Shown: piece by piece, positions 7,537 to 31,376 of the stretch
How positions within the stretch are numbered: the first letter of the stretch is position 1
Layout of the letters: the number at the start of each line of letters is the position of its first letter
NCBI RefSeq assembly: GCF_946479715.1
Contig: NZ_CAMLHF010000042.1
Span: 1 to 31,376, forward strand
Direction: 5' to 3'
From: an uncultured Pedobacter sp.
Lineage (GTDB): Bacteria; Bacteroidota; Bacteroidia; Sphingobacteriales; Sphingobacteriaceae
Length of the DNA stretch: 31,376 bases
The notes under the pieces: generated by a model
What the model was told of the DNA's origin: nothing
The model's database searches: none
What the model saw: the letters and a program-made list of their open reading frames with translations, nothing else
Translations under genes and position numbers: made by a program

Positions 7537-10500
7537 ATGCTGAAAAAAATCATTCAGTTTTCTATACAGAACAAATTAGTTATCGGATTATTTACCCTCG
7601 CACTTATTGCCTGGGGTGTATATTCGCTAAAACAATTACCAATAGATGCCGTACCCGATATTACAAATAACCAGGTACAGGTCATCACACTTAGCCCTTC
7701 TTTGGCCACACAGGAGGTAGAAAGGTTAATCTCTTACCCCGTGGAACAAACCATGTCTACCATACCCGAAATTGAACAGGTACGCTCTATTTCAAGATTC
7801 GGTTTGTCGGTAGTGACCATCGTTTTTCATGATGATGTGGACATTTACTGGGCACGGCAGCAGGTTAATGAAAAGCTTGCCGAAGCAAAGAACAACATCC
7901 CTGCAGGATTGGGAAATCCTGAAATATCTCCTATATCAACAGGTCTGGGCGAAATATACCAGTATGTAATCCATGCAAAACCGGGCTTTGAAGAGAAATA
8001 CAATGCCCGTGAACTGCGCAGTATTCAGGACTGGATTGTGAGGAAGCAATTGCTGGGAACTCCAGGTATTGCAGAAGTAAACAGTTTCGGTGGGTTATTA
8101 AAGCAATACGAAATTGCGCTTGATCCGGATAAGTTAAGGGGCCTTAATTTAAGTATTGCTGATGTTTTCACTGCTTTGGAATCCAGTAACCAAAATACAG
8201 GAGGTGCTTATATTGATAAAAAACCAACTGCTTATTTTATCCGCAGTGAGGGCTTAATTGGTAGTCTGGACGACATCAATAAAATAGTGGTTAAGAACAA
8301 TGCCAACGGAATTCCGGTACTTATCCGCGATATTGCTGCTGTTCAGCTGGGTAGCTCCATCCGTTATGGAGCGCTTACCCGGGCAACAACCAAAGGCCAT
8401 GGCGAGGCCGTTGGCGGTATTGTAATGATGCTTAAAGGTGCAAATGCCAATGATGTGGTTAAAAAGGTTAAAACTAAAATAGAGCGGATCAATAAAACGC
8501 TACCTGAAGGGGTTGTTGTTGAACCTTTTCTGGACAGAAGTGCATTGGTAGACCGAGCCATGGGTACGGTAGCTAAAAACCTTATTGAGGGTGCGCTAAT
8601 TGTGATCTTTGTATTGGTGCTCTTTTTAGGGAATTTGCGGGCCGGATTGGTAGTTGCCTCGGTTATTCCGCTATCCATGCTTTTTGCCATTTCGTTAATG
8701 AACCTTTTCGGGGTATCAGGAAACCTGATGAGTCTGGGGGCTATCGACTTTGGTCTGATCGTAGATGGGGCTGTAATTATCGTGGAGGCCACCATGCACA
8801 TCCTGGCAGGTAATAAATTAGGCAGGGCCTATACCCAACGTGAAATGGATGCAGAGGTAGAGAAATCTTCAGTGCGTATGATGAGTGCCGCTGCCTTTGG
8901 TCAGATCATTATTCTGATTGTGTACCTACCCATCCTTGCACTGGTAGGTATAGAAGGGAAAATGTTTGGCCCAATGGCACAAACTGTTTCATTTGCTATT
9001 CTTGGTGCCTTCCTGCTTTCGCTTACCTATGTGCCAATGGTATCCTCGCTGGTATTAAGTAAAAAAGCAGTGCATAAAAGGAATTTTTCAGATCGGATGA
9101 TGGATTTCTTTCAAAGTAAGTACACACCTATCATACATGCCGCTTTGCGTAAACGCATGGTAGTGGTGGTGTCGTCGGTAGTGCTTCTAGCGATCAGTAT
9201 ATTGCTGTTTTTGAGAATGGGAGGAGAGTTTATTCCAACCCTTGAAGAAGGTGATTTTGCTGTAGAAACCCGTTTGCTTACCGGAAGCTCGCTTTCGCAA
9301 ACCATAGATAAAGTAAATCAGGCATCTGATATCCTGGTTAAGCGGTTTCCCGAAGTAAAAGAGGTGATCGGGAAGATTGGAGCAGCCGAGATCCCGACCG
9401 ATCCTATGCCTATGGAAGCATGTGATCTTACCATTATTTTAAAAGATAAAAAAGACTGGACAACCACTAATGACAGGGTAGAACTGGCAGAGCTTATGGG
9501 TAAAGCGCTTGAGGATGTGCCGGGCGTAAGCTTTGGTTTTTCTCAGCCTATTCAGCTTCGCTCTAATGAGCTGATCTCGGGAGTAAGACAGGATATCGGA
9601 ATTAAGATCTTTGGAGATGACCTGACTGCGTTAACCGATATTTCGCAAAAGATCGGGAAAATTGTATCAACAGTTGAGGGTGCAAAAGACCTTTATCTGG
9701 AGCAGGCCACAGGTCTTCCACAGATCGTAGTGAAGATCAACCGCGATAGGATTGCCCAATATGGTTTAACCGTTGATAAAGTAAATCAGGCCCTTAATAC
9801 TGCCTTTGCGGGTCAATCTGCCGGAGTGGTTTACGAGGGTGAGCAGCGTTACGATATGGTGGTGCGCTTGTCGCAGCAGAACCGTCAGGACATCAGTGAT
9901 GTAAAAAATGTTTATGTATCTGCACCTAACGGCAATCAGGTTCCGCTTGATCAGCTTGCGGATGTAGAATTTAAGATAGGACCAAATCAGATCCAGCGTG
10001 AAGATACCAAACGAAGGATCATTGTTGGGCTGAACGTAAGGGGTCGTGATATTGCCAGTGTGGTAACCGAGATTGAAGAAAAGATCAACGCGCAGATCAA
10101 ACTGCCTGCCGGTTATTACATCACTTATGGTGGTCAGTTTGAAAACCTGAAGGAAGCTACCCAAAGGCTTTCTATTGCCGTTCCTGTTGCCCTGGCACTC
10201 ATCCTGCTGTTGTTGTATTTCTCTTTTGGATCCGTTAAGCAATCGGTACTTATATTTTCTGCCATTCCAATGGCAGCCATAGGTGGAATTTTTGCATTAC
10301 TACTTCGTGGAATGCCTTTCAGTATATCTGCAGGTGTTGGTTTTATTGCGCTCTTTGGTGTTGCGGTATTAAATGGGATTGTACTGATCACCGAGTTTAA
10401 CAGGCTCCGTAAACTTGATAAATACGGCTTGGACGAAATTGTGCTTAAAGGTACAGCCATCCGTTTAAGACCGGTGCTGATGACCGCAACAGTGGCTTCA

Positions 10501-11922
10501 TTAGGTTTTTTGCCCATGGCCATTTCTACAGCCGCAGGGGCAGAGGTTCAAAAACCACTTGCTACCGTTGTAATCGGCGGGCTCATTACCTCTACTATTT
10601 TAACTTTAATTGTATTACCCGTGTTATATACTTATTTTGAAGGCTATAAACGTAAGCCTAAAACAAGTGTTCCGGCAGCAATAATTGCCATTATTGCTTT
10701 GTTCACTTTTACCGTACCCGTTGTGGCAAATGCACAGCAAACATCTTTAAAAGGAAGCCCGCTTACTATGGAACAAGTTGTGCAAACTGCTCTCAAAAAC
10801 AACCAGTCCATAAAATCTTCAGGCCTTCAGGTTAATCAGCAGCAGGCATTAAGAGGCAGTTCGACCGACTTAGGGAAAACAAATCTTGATGTGCAGTACG
10901 GACAAATTAACGGAATTAAAAAAGATAATAATTTTAGTGTTTCCCAAAGTATTCCGAATCCTGGACTATTTAGAAACCAGCGTAACCTGTATGATGCGCA
11001 GATCAAGGGTGCCGAAATTAATGTGGCGGTTACACAAAACGAACTGACTTATCAGGTTAAAAGCACTTATATGCACCTTGCTTATTTTATCGCTTTAAAA
11101 GACCTGTATAAAAGTCAGGATTCGGTGTATAGCAATTTCTTAAAAGCGGCCTCTCTAAGGTATGAAACAGGGGAGACCAACCTGCTGGAGAAAACTACAG
11201 CCGAAACGCAGTATAATGAAGTACGGAATCAGATGAGCGAAAATGAATCTGATATTCTTGCTTATACCTCTGAACTGCAGCGACTGCTCAATACACAAGA
11301 ACCTGTTGAAATTGTGAAGGATCAGTTTATACAAGCCGAATGGAATGCTGCAGCTGGCAATAGCGTTGGTGCAAACCCACAACTTGCCCTGCAAAAACAA
11401 CAGATTGAGATTGCCGATAAAGCGCTGGGTGTAGAGAAAGCCCGTTCAGGACCTGATTTTACTGTTGGTTATTTTAACCAGTCCATTATCGGCACACAAA
11501 CGGTTAATGGGAAGGATCAGTATTTTAATGGTGGTAAAAGATTTCAGGGCGTACAGGCAGGAGTAGCCATTCCTTTATTCTTTAAGCCTTTTTCGGCTCG
11601 TATAAAAGCAGCCAGAATAGAAAAGCAGGTAACGGAAAGTCAGTATGAACTTTTCCAGACCAATTTGCAGGGCGAATACAATAAGGCCAATCAAGGCATG
11701 CTTAAAAACTCACGGAGCATCGATTATTACAAAAAAAGCGCCCTGCCAAATGCCAACCTGATTTTAAAGCAATCGCAGATCGCGTTTCAAAACGGAGAGA
11801 TCGGTTATGTAGAATATCTTCAGGGATTAAGGACGTATTCGGAAACCCATTTTAGCTATCTGCAGGCTATTAATCAATACAATCAATCAGTTTATACACT
11901 TCAATACCTCAGTGGTTTATAA
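7537..11922 (+). CDS. CusA/CzcA-family heavy-metal RND pump fused to a TolC-type outer membrane channel
   Basis: 1461 residues in one frame. Residues 1 to about 1040 are a complete HME-type RND pump: the N-terminal helix and PDITNNQVQV, then the proton-relay helix DFGLIVDGAVIIVE (Asp404, Asp410, Glu417). Two large periplasmic regions and a second transmembrane block ending in VVIGGLITSTILTLIVLPVLYTYF follow. After KRKPK comes an extra hydrophobic stretch (about 1048-1062) ending VVANA|QQ, which looks exactly like a signal peptide. From 1067 to 1461 it is an outer membrane efflux protein: LTMEQVVQTALKNNQSIK, long helices and VGYFNQS strands. The pump and channel should form a tripartite exporter with the adaptor encoded 8 bp downstream. 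Metal choice (Cu/Ag or Co/Zn/Cd/Ni) cannot be read with confidence. Such fusions are known in Bacteroidota, so this is not a sequencing artefact. Confidence 0.92.
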   Translation: MLKKIIQFSIQNKLVIGLFTLALIAWGVYSLKQLPIDAVPDITNNQVQVITLSPSLATQEVERLISYPVEQTMSTIPEIEQVRSISRFGLSVVTIVFHDDVDIYWARQQVNEKLAEAKNNIPAGLGNPEISPISTGLGEIYQYVIHAKPGFEEKYNARELRSIQDWIVRKQLLGTPGIAEVNSFGGLLKQYEIALDPDKLRGLNLSIADVFTALESSNQNTGGAYIDKKPTAYFIRSEGLIGSLDDINKIVVKNNANGIPVLIRDIAAVQLGSSIRYGALTRATTKGHGEAVGGIVMMLKGANANDVVKKVKTKIERINKTLPEGVVVEPFLDRSALVDRAMGTVAKNLIEGALIVIFVLVLFLGNLRAGLVVASVIPLSMLFAISLMNLFGVSGNLMSLGAIDFGLIVDGAVIIVEATMHILAGNKLGRAYTQREMDAEVEKSSVRMMSAAAFGQIIILIVYLPILALVGIEGKMFGPMAQTVSFAILGAFLLSLTYVPMVSSLVLSKKAVHKRNFSDRMMDFFQSKYTPIIHAALRKRMVVVVSSVVLLAISILLFLRMGGEFIPTLEEGDFAVETRLLTGSSLSQTIDKVNQASDILVKRFPEVKEVIGKIGAAEIPTDPMPMEACDLTIILKDKKDWTTTNDRVELAELMGKALEDVPGVSFGFSQPIQLRSNELISGVRQDIGIKIFGDDLTALTDISQKIGKIVSTVEGAKDLYLEQATGLPQIVVKINRDRIAQYGLTVDKVNQALNTAFAGQSAGVVYEGEQRYDMVVRLSQQNRQDISDVKNVYVSAPNGNQVPLDQLADVEFKIGPNQIQREDTKRRIIVGLNVRGRDIASVVTEIEEKINAQIKLPAGYYITYGGQFENLKEATQRLSIAVPVALALILLLLYFSFGSVKQSVLIFSAIPMAAIGGIFALLLRGMPFSISAGVGFIALFGVAVLNGIVLITEFNRLRKLDKYGLDEIVLKGTAIRLRPVLMTATVASLGFLPMAISTAAGAEVQKPLATVVIGGLITSTILTLIVLPVLYTYFEGYKRKPKTSVPAAIIAIIALFTFTVPVVANAQQTSLKGSPLTMEQVVQTALKNNQSIKSSGLQVNQQQALRGSSTDLGKTNLDVQYGQINGIKKDNNFSVSQSIPNPGLFRNQRNLYDAQIKGAEINVAVTQNELTYQVKSTYMHLAYFIALKDLYKSQDSVYSNFLKAASLRYETGETNLLEKTTAETQYNEVRNQMSENESDILAYTSELQRLLNTQEPVEIVKDQFIQAEWNAAAGNSVGANPQLALQKQQIEIADKALGVEKARSGPDFTVGYFNQSIIGTQTVNGKDQYFNGGKRFQGVQAGVAIPLFFKPFSARIKAARIEKQVTESQYELFQTNLQGEYNKANQGMLKNSRSIDYYKKSALPNANLILKQSQIAFQNGEIGYVEYLQGLRTYSETHFSYLQAINQYNQSVYTLQYLSGL

Positions 11923-13118: not shown

Positions 13119-13138
13119 TTTAAAGGTGGTGGTTAGCA

Positions 13139-13178
13139 CTGTACGTCATCTCGAACGCATGCGAGAGATGACGTACAG
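13139..13178. repeat. Palindromic GTCATCTCGA-family repeat, intergenic copy 1
   Basis: Perfect 14-base arms, CTGTACGTCATCTC at 13139-13152 and its complement at 13165-13178, enclose a 12-base centre that itself contains the palindrome CGCATGCG. It lies between the convergent adaptor and MFS genes. It shares the core GTCATCTCGA...GAGATGAC with repeats at 25675 and 31248, so it belongs to a dispersed family. No T-run follows on either side, so it is not a typical intrinsic terminator, although the hairpin could still block or stabilise 3' ends. Confidence 0.85.
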
Positions 13179-13213
13179 TATAAAGTATGACGACGTAAAG
13201 CACGATGACAATG

Positions 13214-25674: not shown

Positions 25675-25762
25675 GCACTTACCGTCATCTCGACGATAGG
25701 AGAGATCTCTTGGTTATGCAGGTTCAAGAGATCTCTCCTATCGTCGAGATGACGGTAAGTGC
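25675..25762. repeat. Long perfect inverted repeat of the GTCATCTCGA family, intergenic copy 2
   Basis: Arms of 38 bases, 25675-25712 and 25725-25762, are perfectly complementary around a 12-base centre. The arms begin GCACTTACCGTCATCTCGAC and include the AGAGATCTCT palindrome. It starts 8 bases after the susD stop and ends 43 bases before the next gene. Its core is shared with the repeats at 13139 and 31248. The RNA would fold into one very stable stem. No T-run follows, so it is not a standard terminator. A role in 3' protection of susCD mRNA or partial termination is possible. Confidence 0.92.
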
Positions 25763-29710: not shown

Positions 29711-30274
29711 ATGAGAAAGATAATCTATGGTATCAATCTGAGTGCAGATGGCTGCTGCGACCATACTAAATTCGGTGGCGGAGGAGAAACCCATGAGTAT
29801 TTTACGGACCTCATGCGGGATGTTGACCTGATTATTTATGGGCGCAAAACCTATGAACTGATGGTTCCTTACTGGCCTGATGTAGCAAAAAAACAGTCGG
29901 GGACGAAATCAGTGAATGAATTTGCGCAAACATTTGACGCAATTGACAAAGTTGTTTTTTCCCGAACATTAGATAAGGTTGAAGGAAATACAAAGCTTAT
30001 TCGTGAGAACCTTGGAGACGAAGTTCTAAAACTTAAACAGGAACCAGGCAAAAATATTTCAATTGGGGGTGTAAGTTTGCCCTCGGAACTGATATCACTT
30101 GGTTTGGTTGATGAGTTTTATTTTCTGGTTCATCCTACTATTGTTGGCGAAGGAAGGCGATTGTTCGATGGTACAGGATTTCAGGTGCAGTTGGATTTAA
30201 CGCTGGTGGATTCGAAGGTGCTTAAATCAGGATGTGTATCACTTCATTACTTAAAATTAAAACATTCAACATAA
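29711..30274 (+). CDS. Dihydrofolate reductase-like (RibD C-terminal domain) protein
   Basis: 187 residues without a signal peptide. The start MRKIIYGINLSADGCCDH, the LIIYGRKTYELMVPYW segment and the C-terminal ISIGGVSLPSELISLGLVDEFYFLVHPTIVGEGRRLFDG block are typical of the RibD_C/YwjB-YyaP family, which has the dihydrofolate reductase fold and probably binds NADPH. IGGVSLPSEL fits the nucleotide-binding glycine turn of the family. These proteins are small oxidoreductases with mostly unknown substrates and are not the housekeeping folate enzyme. The following VOC gene starts within 5 bp, so the two form a unit. A bidirectional-looking terminator lies upstream at 29593-29619, so the unit must have its own promoter in 29620-29710; I saw no convincing one. 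Confidence 0.85.
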   Translation: MRKIIYGINLSADGCCDHTKFGGGGETHEYFTDLMRDVDLIIYGRKTYELMVPYWPDVAKKQSGTKSVNEFAQTFDAIDKVVFSRTLDKVEGNTKLIRENLGDEVLKLKQEPGKNISIGGVSLPSELISLGLVDEFYFLVHPTIVGEGRRLFDGTGFQVQLDLTLVDSKVLKSGCVSLHYLKLKHST

Positions 30275-30279
30275 ATATT

Positions 30280-30705
30280 ATGAGATCAATAAATCCCTGG
30301 ATCAATTTCAATGGCAATGCCGAGGAAGCATTCACTTTTTACAAATCAGTTTTTGGCGGAGAGTTTACAAAGGTCATTCGTTTCAAAGACCTTGCGAGCG
30401 CCGAGTTTCCGGTAGCTGAGCACGAAGCAAATAAGATTATGCACATTGCTTTGCCTATTGGTAAAAACAATACGTTGATAGCCAATGATGTCCCCGAATT
30501 TATGGGACGGGTAAACGAAAGCGAGAACAGGTCGAAAATATCAGTTAGTGCAGAAAGCCGTGAAGAAGCAGACCAAATATTTAATGGCCTATCGGCAGGT
30601 GGAGATATTGAAGGACCGATTGGCGACAGCCCCTGGGGTACTTACGCCGGAATGTTCAGAGACAAGTATGGTATTGAATGGATAGTGGAATTTGAACCAC
30701 TATAA
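30280..30705 (+). CDS. VOC-family protein, PhnB-like
   Basis: I use the ATG at 30280 (MRSINPWINFNGNAEEAFTFYKSVFGGEF), five bases after the previous stop, giving 141 residues. The in-frame ATG at 30232 would overlap the reductase gene by 43 bases and add a leader unlike the family. WINFNGNAEEAFTFYKSVFGGE is the standard opening of PhnB-type vicinal oxygen chelate proteins. The C-terminal GDIEGPIGDSPWGTYAGMFRDKYGIEWIVEFEP carries the typical PWG..YG.. turn and the WIV strand. The real activity of most such proteins is unknown, despite old names such as demethylubiquinone methyltransferase-like. Tight linkage with the RibD_C-like reductase suggests a shared, unknown metabolite or stress role. 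Confidence 0.86.
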   Translation: MRSINPWINFNGNAEEAFTFYKSVFGGEFTKVIRFKDLASAEFPVAEHEANKIMHIALPIGKNNTLIANDVPEFMGRVNESENRSKISVSAESREEADQIFNGLSAGGDIEGPIGDSPWGTYAGMFRDKYGIEWIVEFEPL

Positions 30706-30786: not shown

Positions 30787-31376
30787 ATGGACAAGCAACA
30801 ATTTTTAGCACTTATAGATAAATACCTTGAAGGCCGGGCTTCAATAGAAGAAGAGCAGATGTTGCTTAACTACTATGGCAGCTTTCAACATACCAGGGCA
30901 TGGGATGAAAAGGTATTGGGTGTAAAAGAAGAAATAGAAAATAAAATGCTTGGTCGCATACAAGACCATGTTAAACTAAACAGGGTTAAAGAACCGGTTA
31001 GGTTATGGCCTCGTATAGCTGCTGCGGCAGCAATTTTGTTGGTGGTAGGAGCAGGCCTGCTCCTTTACAAAGCCCACTATGCTGAAAAAGCTCGTCACCC
31101 AGAACTTGTTTCAGGATCTCTGGATATTGCCCCAGGTAAAAACACAGCGATCTTAACTTTAGCTAATGGTAAAACGATCAGTTTAAGCGAAGCTAAAACA
31201 GGGGTAGTGGTTGGTGCTTCTGGTTTACGATACAACGATAATACTGCCGTCATCTCGAAAGAAGAGAGAGATCTCTTGAATAGCACAGGTGAGATGACGA
31301 GCCTTGCCACCCCTCGTGGCGGGCAATACCAAATCACATTGCCGGATGGCACCAAAGTATGGCTAAACGCTGCTTC
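30787..31376 (+). CDS. FecR-family anti-sigma factor, 3' end outside window, with two repeat-derived in-frame segments
   Basis: Open from the ATG at 30787 to the window edge (196 full codons). It begins [30 protein letters not shown], the cytoplasmic sigma-binding part. A single membrane helix follows (about residues 77-95), then the periplasmic FecR part: [20 protein letters not shown] and [25 protein letters not shown], the family's most conserved block. In an ordinary FecR the linker before IAPG and the stretch before TPRGGQY have other, variable sequences. Here the first contains [10 protein letters not shown], encoded by the repeat-like 31093-31120, and the second contains [18 protein letters not shown], encoded by the palindrome at 31248-31299. 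The reading frame stays open across both. The protein should hold an ECF sigma factor at the inner membrane until a SusC-type receptor signals. No sigma gene is directly upstream. Confidence 0.85.
   Translation, partial: [196 protein letters not shown]
31093..31120. repeat. Dispersed-repeat-like sequence inside the FecR gene ([8 protein letters not shown]-encoding)
   Basis: The sequence starts CGTCACCCAGAACTTGTTTC and ends AGGATCTC. It has an imperfect dyad, CCnGAA...TTCnGG, around 31107. Closely similar GTCACCCTGAACTTGTTTCAGG sequences are common dispersed palindromic repeats in many bacteria, and peptides with HPELVSGS are their usual translation product (from memory, not searched). It encodes residues 103-112 just outside the membrane helix. 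Confidence 0.6.
31248..31299. repeat. GTCATCTCGA-family palindromic repeat, copy 3, inside the FecR coding sequence
   Basis: Nine-base arms CGTCATCTC (31248-31256) and GAGATGACG (31291-31299) enclose AGAGATCTCT (31267-31276). The left part matches the intergenic copy at 25675 in GTCATCTCGA and GAGAGATCTCTTG. It is read in frame as part of the FecR periplasmic domain without a stop codon. Confidence 0.85.

Follow-up and report, generated by a model that had tools for sequence, protein, structure and literature searches.

In-frame pieces of palindromic repeats at three sites of a Pedobacter FecR subfamily

The FecR gene and its palindromic segments

The stretch of DNA analysed here, referred to as the window, comprises 31,376 nucleotides of contig NZ_CAMLHF010000042.1 from an uncultured Pedobacter sp., and near its end it carries a FecR-type anti-sigma gene that harbours pieces of two palindromic repeats, which we call F1 and F2 (Table 1). 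The FecR frame is open throughout (30787-31374) and runs past the window end. An alignment with full-length relatives places three sites in this protein, namely site A, between the membrane helix and the FecR domain; site B, which in the window gene is the in-frame segment 31248-31299 (residues 154-171); and site C, behind the FecR domain. Pfam gave no match for the 196 window residues, which end before the FecR and FecR_C domains end, and the domain calls are those of P0006, the nearest protein, a full-length sister that is 95% identical over the 196 residues and carries both inserts (A and B). Site C of P0006 is filled as well. P0006 has the architecture of FecR-type proteins, with a membrane helix at 74-100, FecR (PF04773) at 173-268 and FecR_C (PF16344) at 320-388. 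Directly upstream of the FecR gene (29711-30705) there is no sigma-factor gene, the two open reading frames (ORFs) there being RibD_C-like and glyoxalase-like. Farther away, at 7537-11922, the window has one ORF of 1461 amino acids in which an AcrB-type pump (5-1034) and an outer-membrane efflux domain (1280-1460) are fused.

Table 1. Features of the window discussed in the text
Feature	Position	Strand	Remarks
FecR-type anti-sigma gene, 5' part	30787..31376	+	open frame; 196 codons seen; gene cut by window end; site C lies outside
Site A, half of palindrome F2	31093..31119	+	in frame; RHPELVSGS, residues 103-111
Site B, left arm of palindrome F1	31248..31278	+	in frame
Site B, right end of palindrome F1	31291..31299	+	in frame; GAGATGACG, within GEMTS
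Intact intergenic F1 palindrome	25675..25762		two perfect 38-nt arms, 12 nt between
Intergenic palindrome with F1 ends only	13138..13179		CGTCATCTC...GAGATGACG, without the central AGAGATCTCT

The F1 arm, written as GTCATCTCGA-N(5-11)-GAGATCTCTTG, occurs three times in the window (25684-25712 on the plus strand, 25725-25753 on the minus strand and 31249-31278 on the plus strand) and not once in 100 dinucleotide shuffles of it, while the F1 terminus GAGATGACG is present in six copies against a shuffle mean of 0.05. For site A, CGTCACCCAGAACTTGTTTCAGGATCT has one match with one mismatch, at 31093-31119, and none in 100 shuffles. The original prediction, that an intergenic palindromic element lies in frame within a FecR gene whose frame stays open, is thus borne out on both counts, site B being matched by an intact intergenic copy elsewhere in the window. 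Both of the other copies it named are intergenic, but the one at 13138-13179 shares the F1 ends only. It overlooked the F2 half at site A of the same gene, and the element it described is no isolated case, there being two in this gene and three sites across the family. The F1 copy in the FecR gene is not a full element and appears to be internally shortened, keeping its left arm but, of the opposite side, no more than the end.

The RNA of the window FecR copy has a predicted fold of -22.1 kcal/mol (z -3.8), better than all 200 shuffles, and that of the intact intergenic copy one of -74.7 kcal/mol (z -16.8). This agrees with the suggestion that the mRNA could fold inside the gene, as is to be expected of any palindrome. 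A folded stretch of L199 did not include the element and was left out of account. A search of the window with Rfam returned nothing at gathering score.

The same sites in relatives

The state of the sites before insertion was judged from 40 loci of relatives taken from public genomes. In the orthologue of Pedobacter sp. V48 (L003), site B retains a longer element, VLSKEERGRLNSTDKGSLPAGGDDRKVEMTS, so that the window copy appears to have been shortened in frame. The genome of P. foliorum has no F1 arm, and its orthologue lacks the window segment and carries instead an F2 remnant, GRHPETSLEFSSGSGP, at site B. Thus, a genome that lacks the repeat family but has the same 18 residues, which would mark them as old protein sequence, was not encountered; the sister P0006 does share the segment but is not counted as such a case. 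The P. foliorum genome (G001; noted at contig C4:141506-141525) contains four F2 copies with up to one mismatch. The orthologue of the window FecR gene harbours two of them, and another lies some 200 bp ahead of the start of this orthologue.

Two relatives (L005 and L006) read NDNTAVIS without an element behind it, and in a third (L008) NDNTAVIS stands about 30 nt ahead of a separate F1 half of its own, PRHLGDRRDLLNSTEKIT. The AVIS of the window is therefore either ancestral or coincident with the repeat end, and the part of window site B that is surely extra is nearer 15 residues than 18. The proposal of a single clean insertion of 18 residues does not survive these observations and the internal shortening of the element. 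The more general proposal, of an insertion into a periplasmic loop, holds insofar as this place is empty in some relatives and occupied by different elements in others, but the insertion is neither unique nor that of a full-length element. A take-over of the insert as a useful linker, the other course suggested, is possible.

In P0064 an ancestral-looking VIS is followed directly by the VIS of a repeat (SVISSDNTVISNEVRDLLN), and at site A of L002 one element is nested in another, RHPEL being followed by SRHLDDRRDLLN. Serial repeat ends are also found at B or C in P0020, P0042 and P0047 (e.g., RHLEPSRHFESSRHLDDRRDLLN, RDDGARRNDGARRDDG), an arrangement which suggests that repeats were added in tandem, step by step, to a single landing place.

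Three sites across the FecR subfamily

In-frame pieces of several palindrome types occur at A, B and C in one FecR subfamily of the soil bacteria Pedobacter, with empty sites also present, L144 having no insert at B or C. Three Pedobacter genomes gave 122 FecR-domain matches (39, 44 and 39), and among the 121 genes that were extracted four (L160, L199, L203 and L206) had F1 or F2 matches, all of them of the subfamily form with a conserved 20-residue block and YNDNT or similar. The size of the subfamily differs between genomes: among 47 candidates scored per genome, at least 45 to 47 matched the profile in each of G014, G016, G028 and G034, and 0 to 21 did so in the rest of a set of 40.

We then counted motif patterns in the best 120 of 7994 homologues scored in a protein search, bearing in mind that the query alignment contained repeat peptides and may favour filled sites: A was occupied in 43, B in 49 and C in 49, against shuffled-loop means of 1.8, 1.8 and 2.6, and the protein outside the loops, although four times larger, had patterns in 10 of the 120. 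With a narrower set of patterns the counts in the same homologues were 33 for A, 51 for B, 43 for C and 7 for the remainder of the protein. A tree computed with the loops left out requires at least 23 changes of presence for A, 27 for B and 22 for C, compared to shuffled-label means of 35-38. These numbers are lower than for shuffled labels, yet still amount to 22-27, and the sites are therefore partly inherited and have changed many times.

Three frames are open in the consensus of F2, and in variants a fourth becomes open as well. Counted by site in the best 120 homologues, with patterns that differ in breadth between frames, the RHPELVSG-like frame was used 28 times, the ILKQVQD-like frame six times and ETSSGQ three times, and ILNLFQ, the hydrophobic open frame, not at all. 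This usage fits a filter that would act at the level of the protein.

Distribution of the repeats

The next question is how far the inserts are concentrated in FecR genes. In DNA sampled from four genomes, mostly from the surroundings of FecR genes with a further 400 kb of G034 picked by coordinate, and hence no measure of whole genomes, 107 FecR ORFs (recognised by motif) gave 13 match rows at 12 places in seven genes against a codon-shuffle mean of 0.16, and the 1141 other ORFs gave two matches against a mean of 1.5 (Fisher test on genes, 9e-7). The two matches outside FecR, in ORFs that by eye are sigma-factor-like and hydrolase-like, are a number expected by chance. None of the 126 ORFs longer than 850 amino acids in the sampled DNA had a match.

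A census of classified palindrome loci covered 101 (4 + 29 + 30 + 38), mostly the best one or two matches per genome, which biases it to intact copies, and with neighbours counted separately. Fifteen of them lie inside ORFs of at least 150 amino acids, namely 12 in FecR genes, all at A, B or C, two in GH2 glycosidases and one in a SusC-like receptor (L428), the last of which we take as a probable chance match rather than a true insertion. The FecR frame of L190, which has no start codon, and ORFs below 150 amino acids were excluded or counted as non-coding, among the latter L329, which at 145 amino acids falls below the limit and reads RHPELVSGS. The GH2 glycosidase is a second gene family with a common F2 insertion; two Pedobacter genomes (L304 and L315) have an F2 half, read in frame as ILKQVQDDD, at one and the same position of this gene. 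Among the genomes behind 22 further loci, 18 of which are non-Pedobacter, five had F2 with up to two mismatches, two of the five lying outside Pedobacter, and the single match there within a long ORF is the one in the SusC-like L428.

Searching six Pedobacter genomes for CACCCTGAACTTGTTTCAGG with up to two mismatches returned four places, three at site A of FecR genes and one in a GH2 glycosidase. With the limit unchanged, a slightly altered F2 pattern brings in one more place, in G014 and outside long ORFs (L431), and a looser scan a third FecR gene in G034 (L269), so that the count of F2 places depends on the pattern.

Across the genus, F2 is present in 72 of 145 Pedobacter genomes at up to one mismatch, a single genome having as many as 66 copies. 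F1, at up to three mismatches, is present in 22 of the 145, and reversed control patterns for both were found in none of them. Of the 60 exact F1 arms that G002 and G003 contain, many are paired, 57 fall outside ORFs of at least 150 amino acids and none lies in FecR, the FecR copies of these two genomes being diverged ones. The other three (L077, L081 and L103), which might have been taken as coding insertions, do not reach beyond residue 26 of their ORFs and probably precede the true start. In G100, where 30 of 127 F2 copies were classified, none lay in an ORF of at least 150 amino acids. The intergenic DNA of G034 is poor in repeats, containing no repeated 14-mer with five or more copies.

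Structural position of the inserts

The identity of the inserts, their positions, their recurrence and their concentration in FecR genes are established, and their placing in loops rests on a predicted structure. An AlphaFold model of P0006, built from 70 sequences, has a mean pLDDT of 84. In this model site A (residues 100-110) has a pLDDT below 50, site B lies between strands 146-149 and 170-174 with a short helix modelled at 158-165, and site C is a loop of lower confidence, with block means of 59 and 74, so that all three are predicted to fall in linkers or loops. With FecR at 173-268 and FecR_C at 320-388, the inserts flank the FecR domain and spare FecR_C.

The ordered part of P0006 aligns with BDI_1681 (4m0n) and PupR (6ovk) from residue 168-170 onward. 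The likeness to these cell-surface-signalling anti-sigma factors of the FecR/PupR kind thus begins past site B, and the segments at A to C are repeat-derived. In PupR, the interface with the receptor is described as the linker, beta17 and alpha2, and binding as requiring both subdomains (PMC7186176).

Relation to known repeats

CGTC-tagged REPs are described as short palindromes with a CGTC end that often form head-to-head dimers and are mostly intergenic, with some copies in frame within genes and with Bacteroidetes among the five phyla named; the main text has no mention of Pedobacter (Di Nocera et al., 2013; PMC3733652). Short CGTC-end palindromes that are mostly intergenic and sometimes in frame are thus common to that account and to the Pedobacter repeats. 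Both F1 (CGTCATCTCGA) and F2 (CGTCATCCTGAA) have such an end, with CGTC at one side and AT in the first stem positions, the window copies reading CGTCATC (F1) and CGTCACC (F2). F2 can be written CGTCATCCTGAACTTGTTTCAGGAT and, by reading, ATCCTGAA/CTTGT/TTCAGGAT gives a stem of 8 bp with a loop of 5 nt, which fits the REP dimensions of 8-9 bp and 4-5 nt. In single F1 units the stem is limited to ATCTC/GAGAT, the spacer between varies in length, and the fit to these dimensions is poor. Many copies, mostly intergenic and often in pairs of opposite orientation, are a further REP trait found here, in the pairing of F1 and in the up to 66 copies of F2. The difference lies in the genes entered, as the intragenic CGTC-tagged REPs of that account are in various genes, many of them for DNA replication and repair (PMC3733652), whereas here they gather at three FecR loops.

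The Rickettsia RPEs likewise are in-frame palindromes kept in protein genes, but a review gives them as about 150 bp long and as occupying unrelated metabolic genes (PMC10969869), whereas the Pedobacter inserts have arms of about 30 nt, are sometimes incomplete and recur in one gene family. Many unrelated genes, as in the RPEs, were not found, since the census gave 12 FecR genes, two GH2 genes with one common site and one probable chance match.

CGTC-tagged REPs have no dedicated transposase known. Y1 transposase genes are present in 25 of 25 F2-rich Pedobacter genomes against 6 of 25 F2-free ones, a link at the level of genomes that kinship may confound. F2 was absent near all 32 Y1 loci examined, and none of the three genomes of the F1 and FecR study had a Y1 match, which speaks against a Y1 transposase as the mobiliser. 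In the open-licence literature we found no earlier report of recurrence at three FecR loops. The in-frame insertion itself is genuine and has precedents in RPEs and intragenic REPs, and what is novel is that it recurs at three loops within a single protein family.

Discussion

We propose that a shortened, CGTC-tagged REP-like repeat was inserted in frame and kept, and that the FecR subfamily is a sink for such repeats by way of tolerant loops, a reading that we hold to be probable. Repeats of several types, in both orientations and in more than one reading frame, would be taken up at three periplasmic juxta-membrane loops, where those copies would survive that leave the frame intact and encode a hydrophilic, flexible peptide, and others would disappear, and a resident repeat could serve as the landing place for the next. 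Tolerance together with such landing-pad growth, rather than benefit, is what we infer to be the simplest cause of the concentration in FecR. The absence of matches from the 126 ORFs above 850 amino acids, taken as other loop-rich proteins, means that plain tolerance may not suffice, and a benefit to the cell is possible. Against the proposal also stand the 30 classified F2 copies of G100, none of them in an ORF of at least 150 amino acids, the exact F1 arms of G002 and G003, all outside FecR, the absence of F2 from the Y1 loci, and the repeat peptides in the homologue query, with their possible favouring of filled sites.

The strongest alternative is adaptive diversification, in which altered juxta-membrane loops would separate tens of parallel FecR/receptor systems within one cell or tune the breakdown of FecR. 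The strong concentration in FecR and the empty large ORFs speak for it, as do the four of 40 Pedobacter genomes with at least 45 subfamily members and the finding that in G034, G028 and G016 every F2 place (first pattern, up to two mismatches) lies inside a gene. Against this, the inserts spare the STN-like FecR_C, and the PupR interface, in the published description cited above (PMC7186176), consists of the linker, beta17 and alpha2, though both subdomains are needed. The codon changes between the window and V48 (one synonymous and two replacement changes in 10 codons of site B; four synonymous and none replacement in nine codons of site A) are too few for judging selection. We regard this explanation as unlikely.

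Somewhat less likely still is a target preference, by which the inserting agent would favour a DNA motif at the three FecR loops, the candidate at site B being GTCATC in the ancestral AVIS codons. The insertion sites are indeed fixed at three and the ancestral TAVIS stretch can read GTCATCTC, which is a repeat end, as in L008, but the TAVIS codons differ in L005 and L006 and the majority of copies are intergenic, without FecR-like surroundings. That the segments are ancestral protein sequence, or resemble the repeats by chance, is very improbable despite the occurrence of NDNTAVIS without a repeat, as the F1 and F2 segments have no match in 100 shuffles and the site B segment is missing or exchanged in relatives.

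A bolder view, to which we give only a small chance, is that the Pedobacter repeats are a standing supply of in-frame loop cassettes whose capture at three fixed loops would diversify a large set of parallel FecR regulators; if this were true, a selfish element would have turned into a source of signalling diversity. Returning to the preferred reading, uptake into tolerant loops, the capture of palindromes in frame has been known as an oddity scattered over unrelated genes, whereas here it concerns three loops of one protein family, with many uptakes, several types and frames, and a genus-wide range. This constitutes a replicated natural experiment in the passage of non-coding DNA into protein, in which filled and empty alleles can be compared, and it takes place in a signalling protein of the FecR type, for which crystal structures have shown the fold and the partners. 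To judge from the sequences compared here, stray palindromic DNA appears to have supplied new protein segments to the FecR proteins of Pedobacter.
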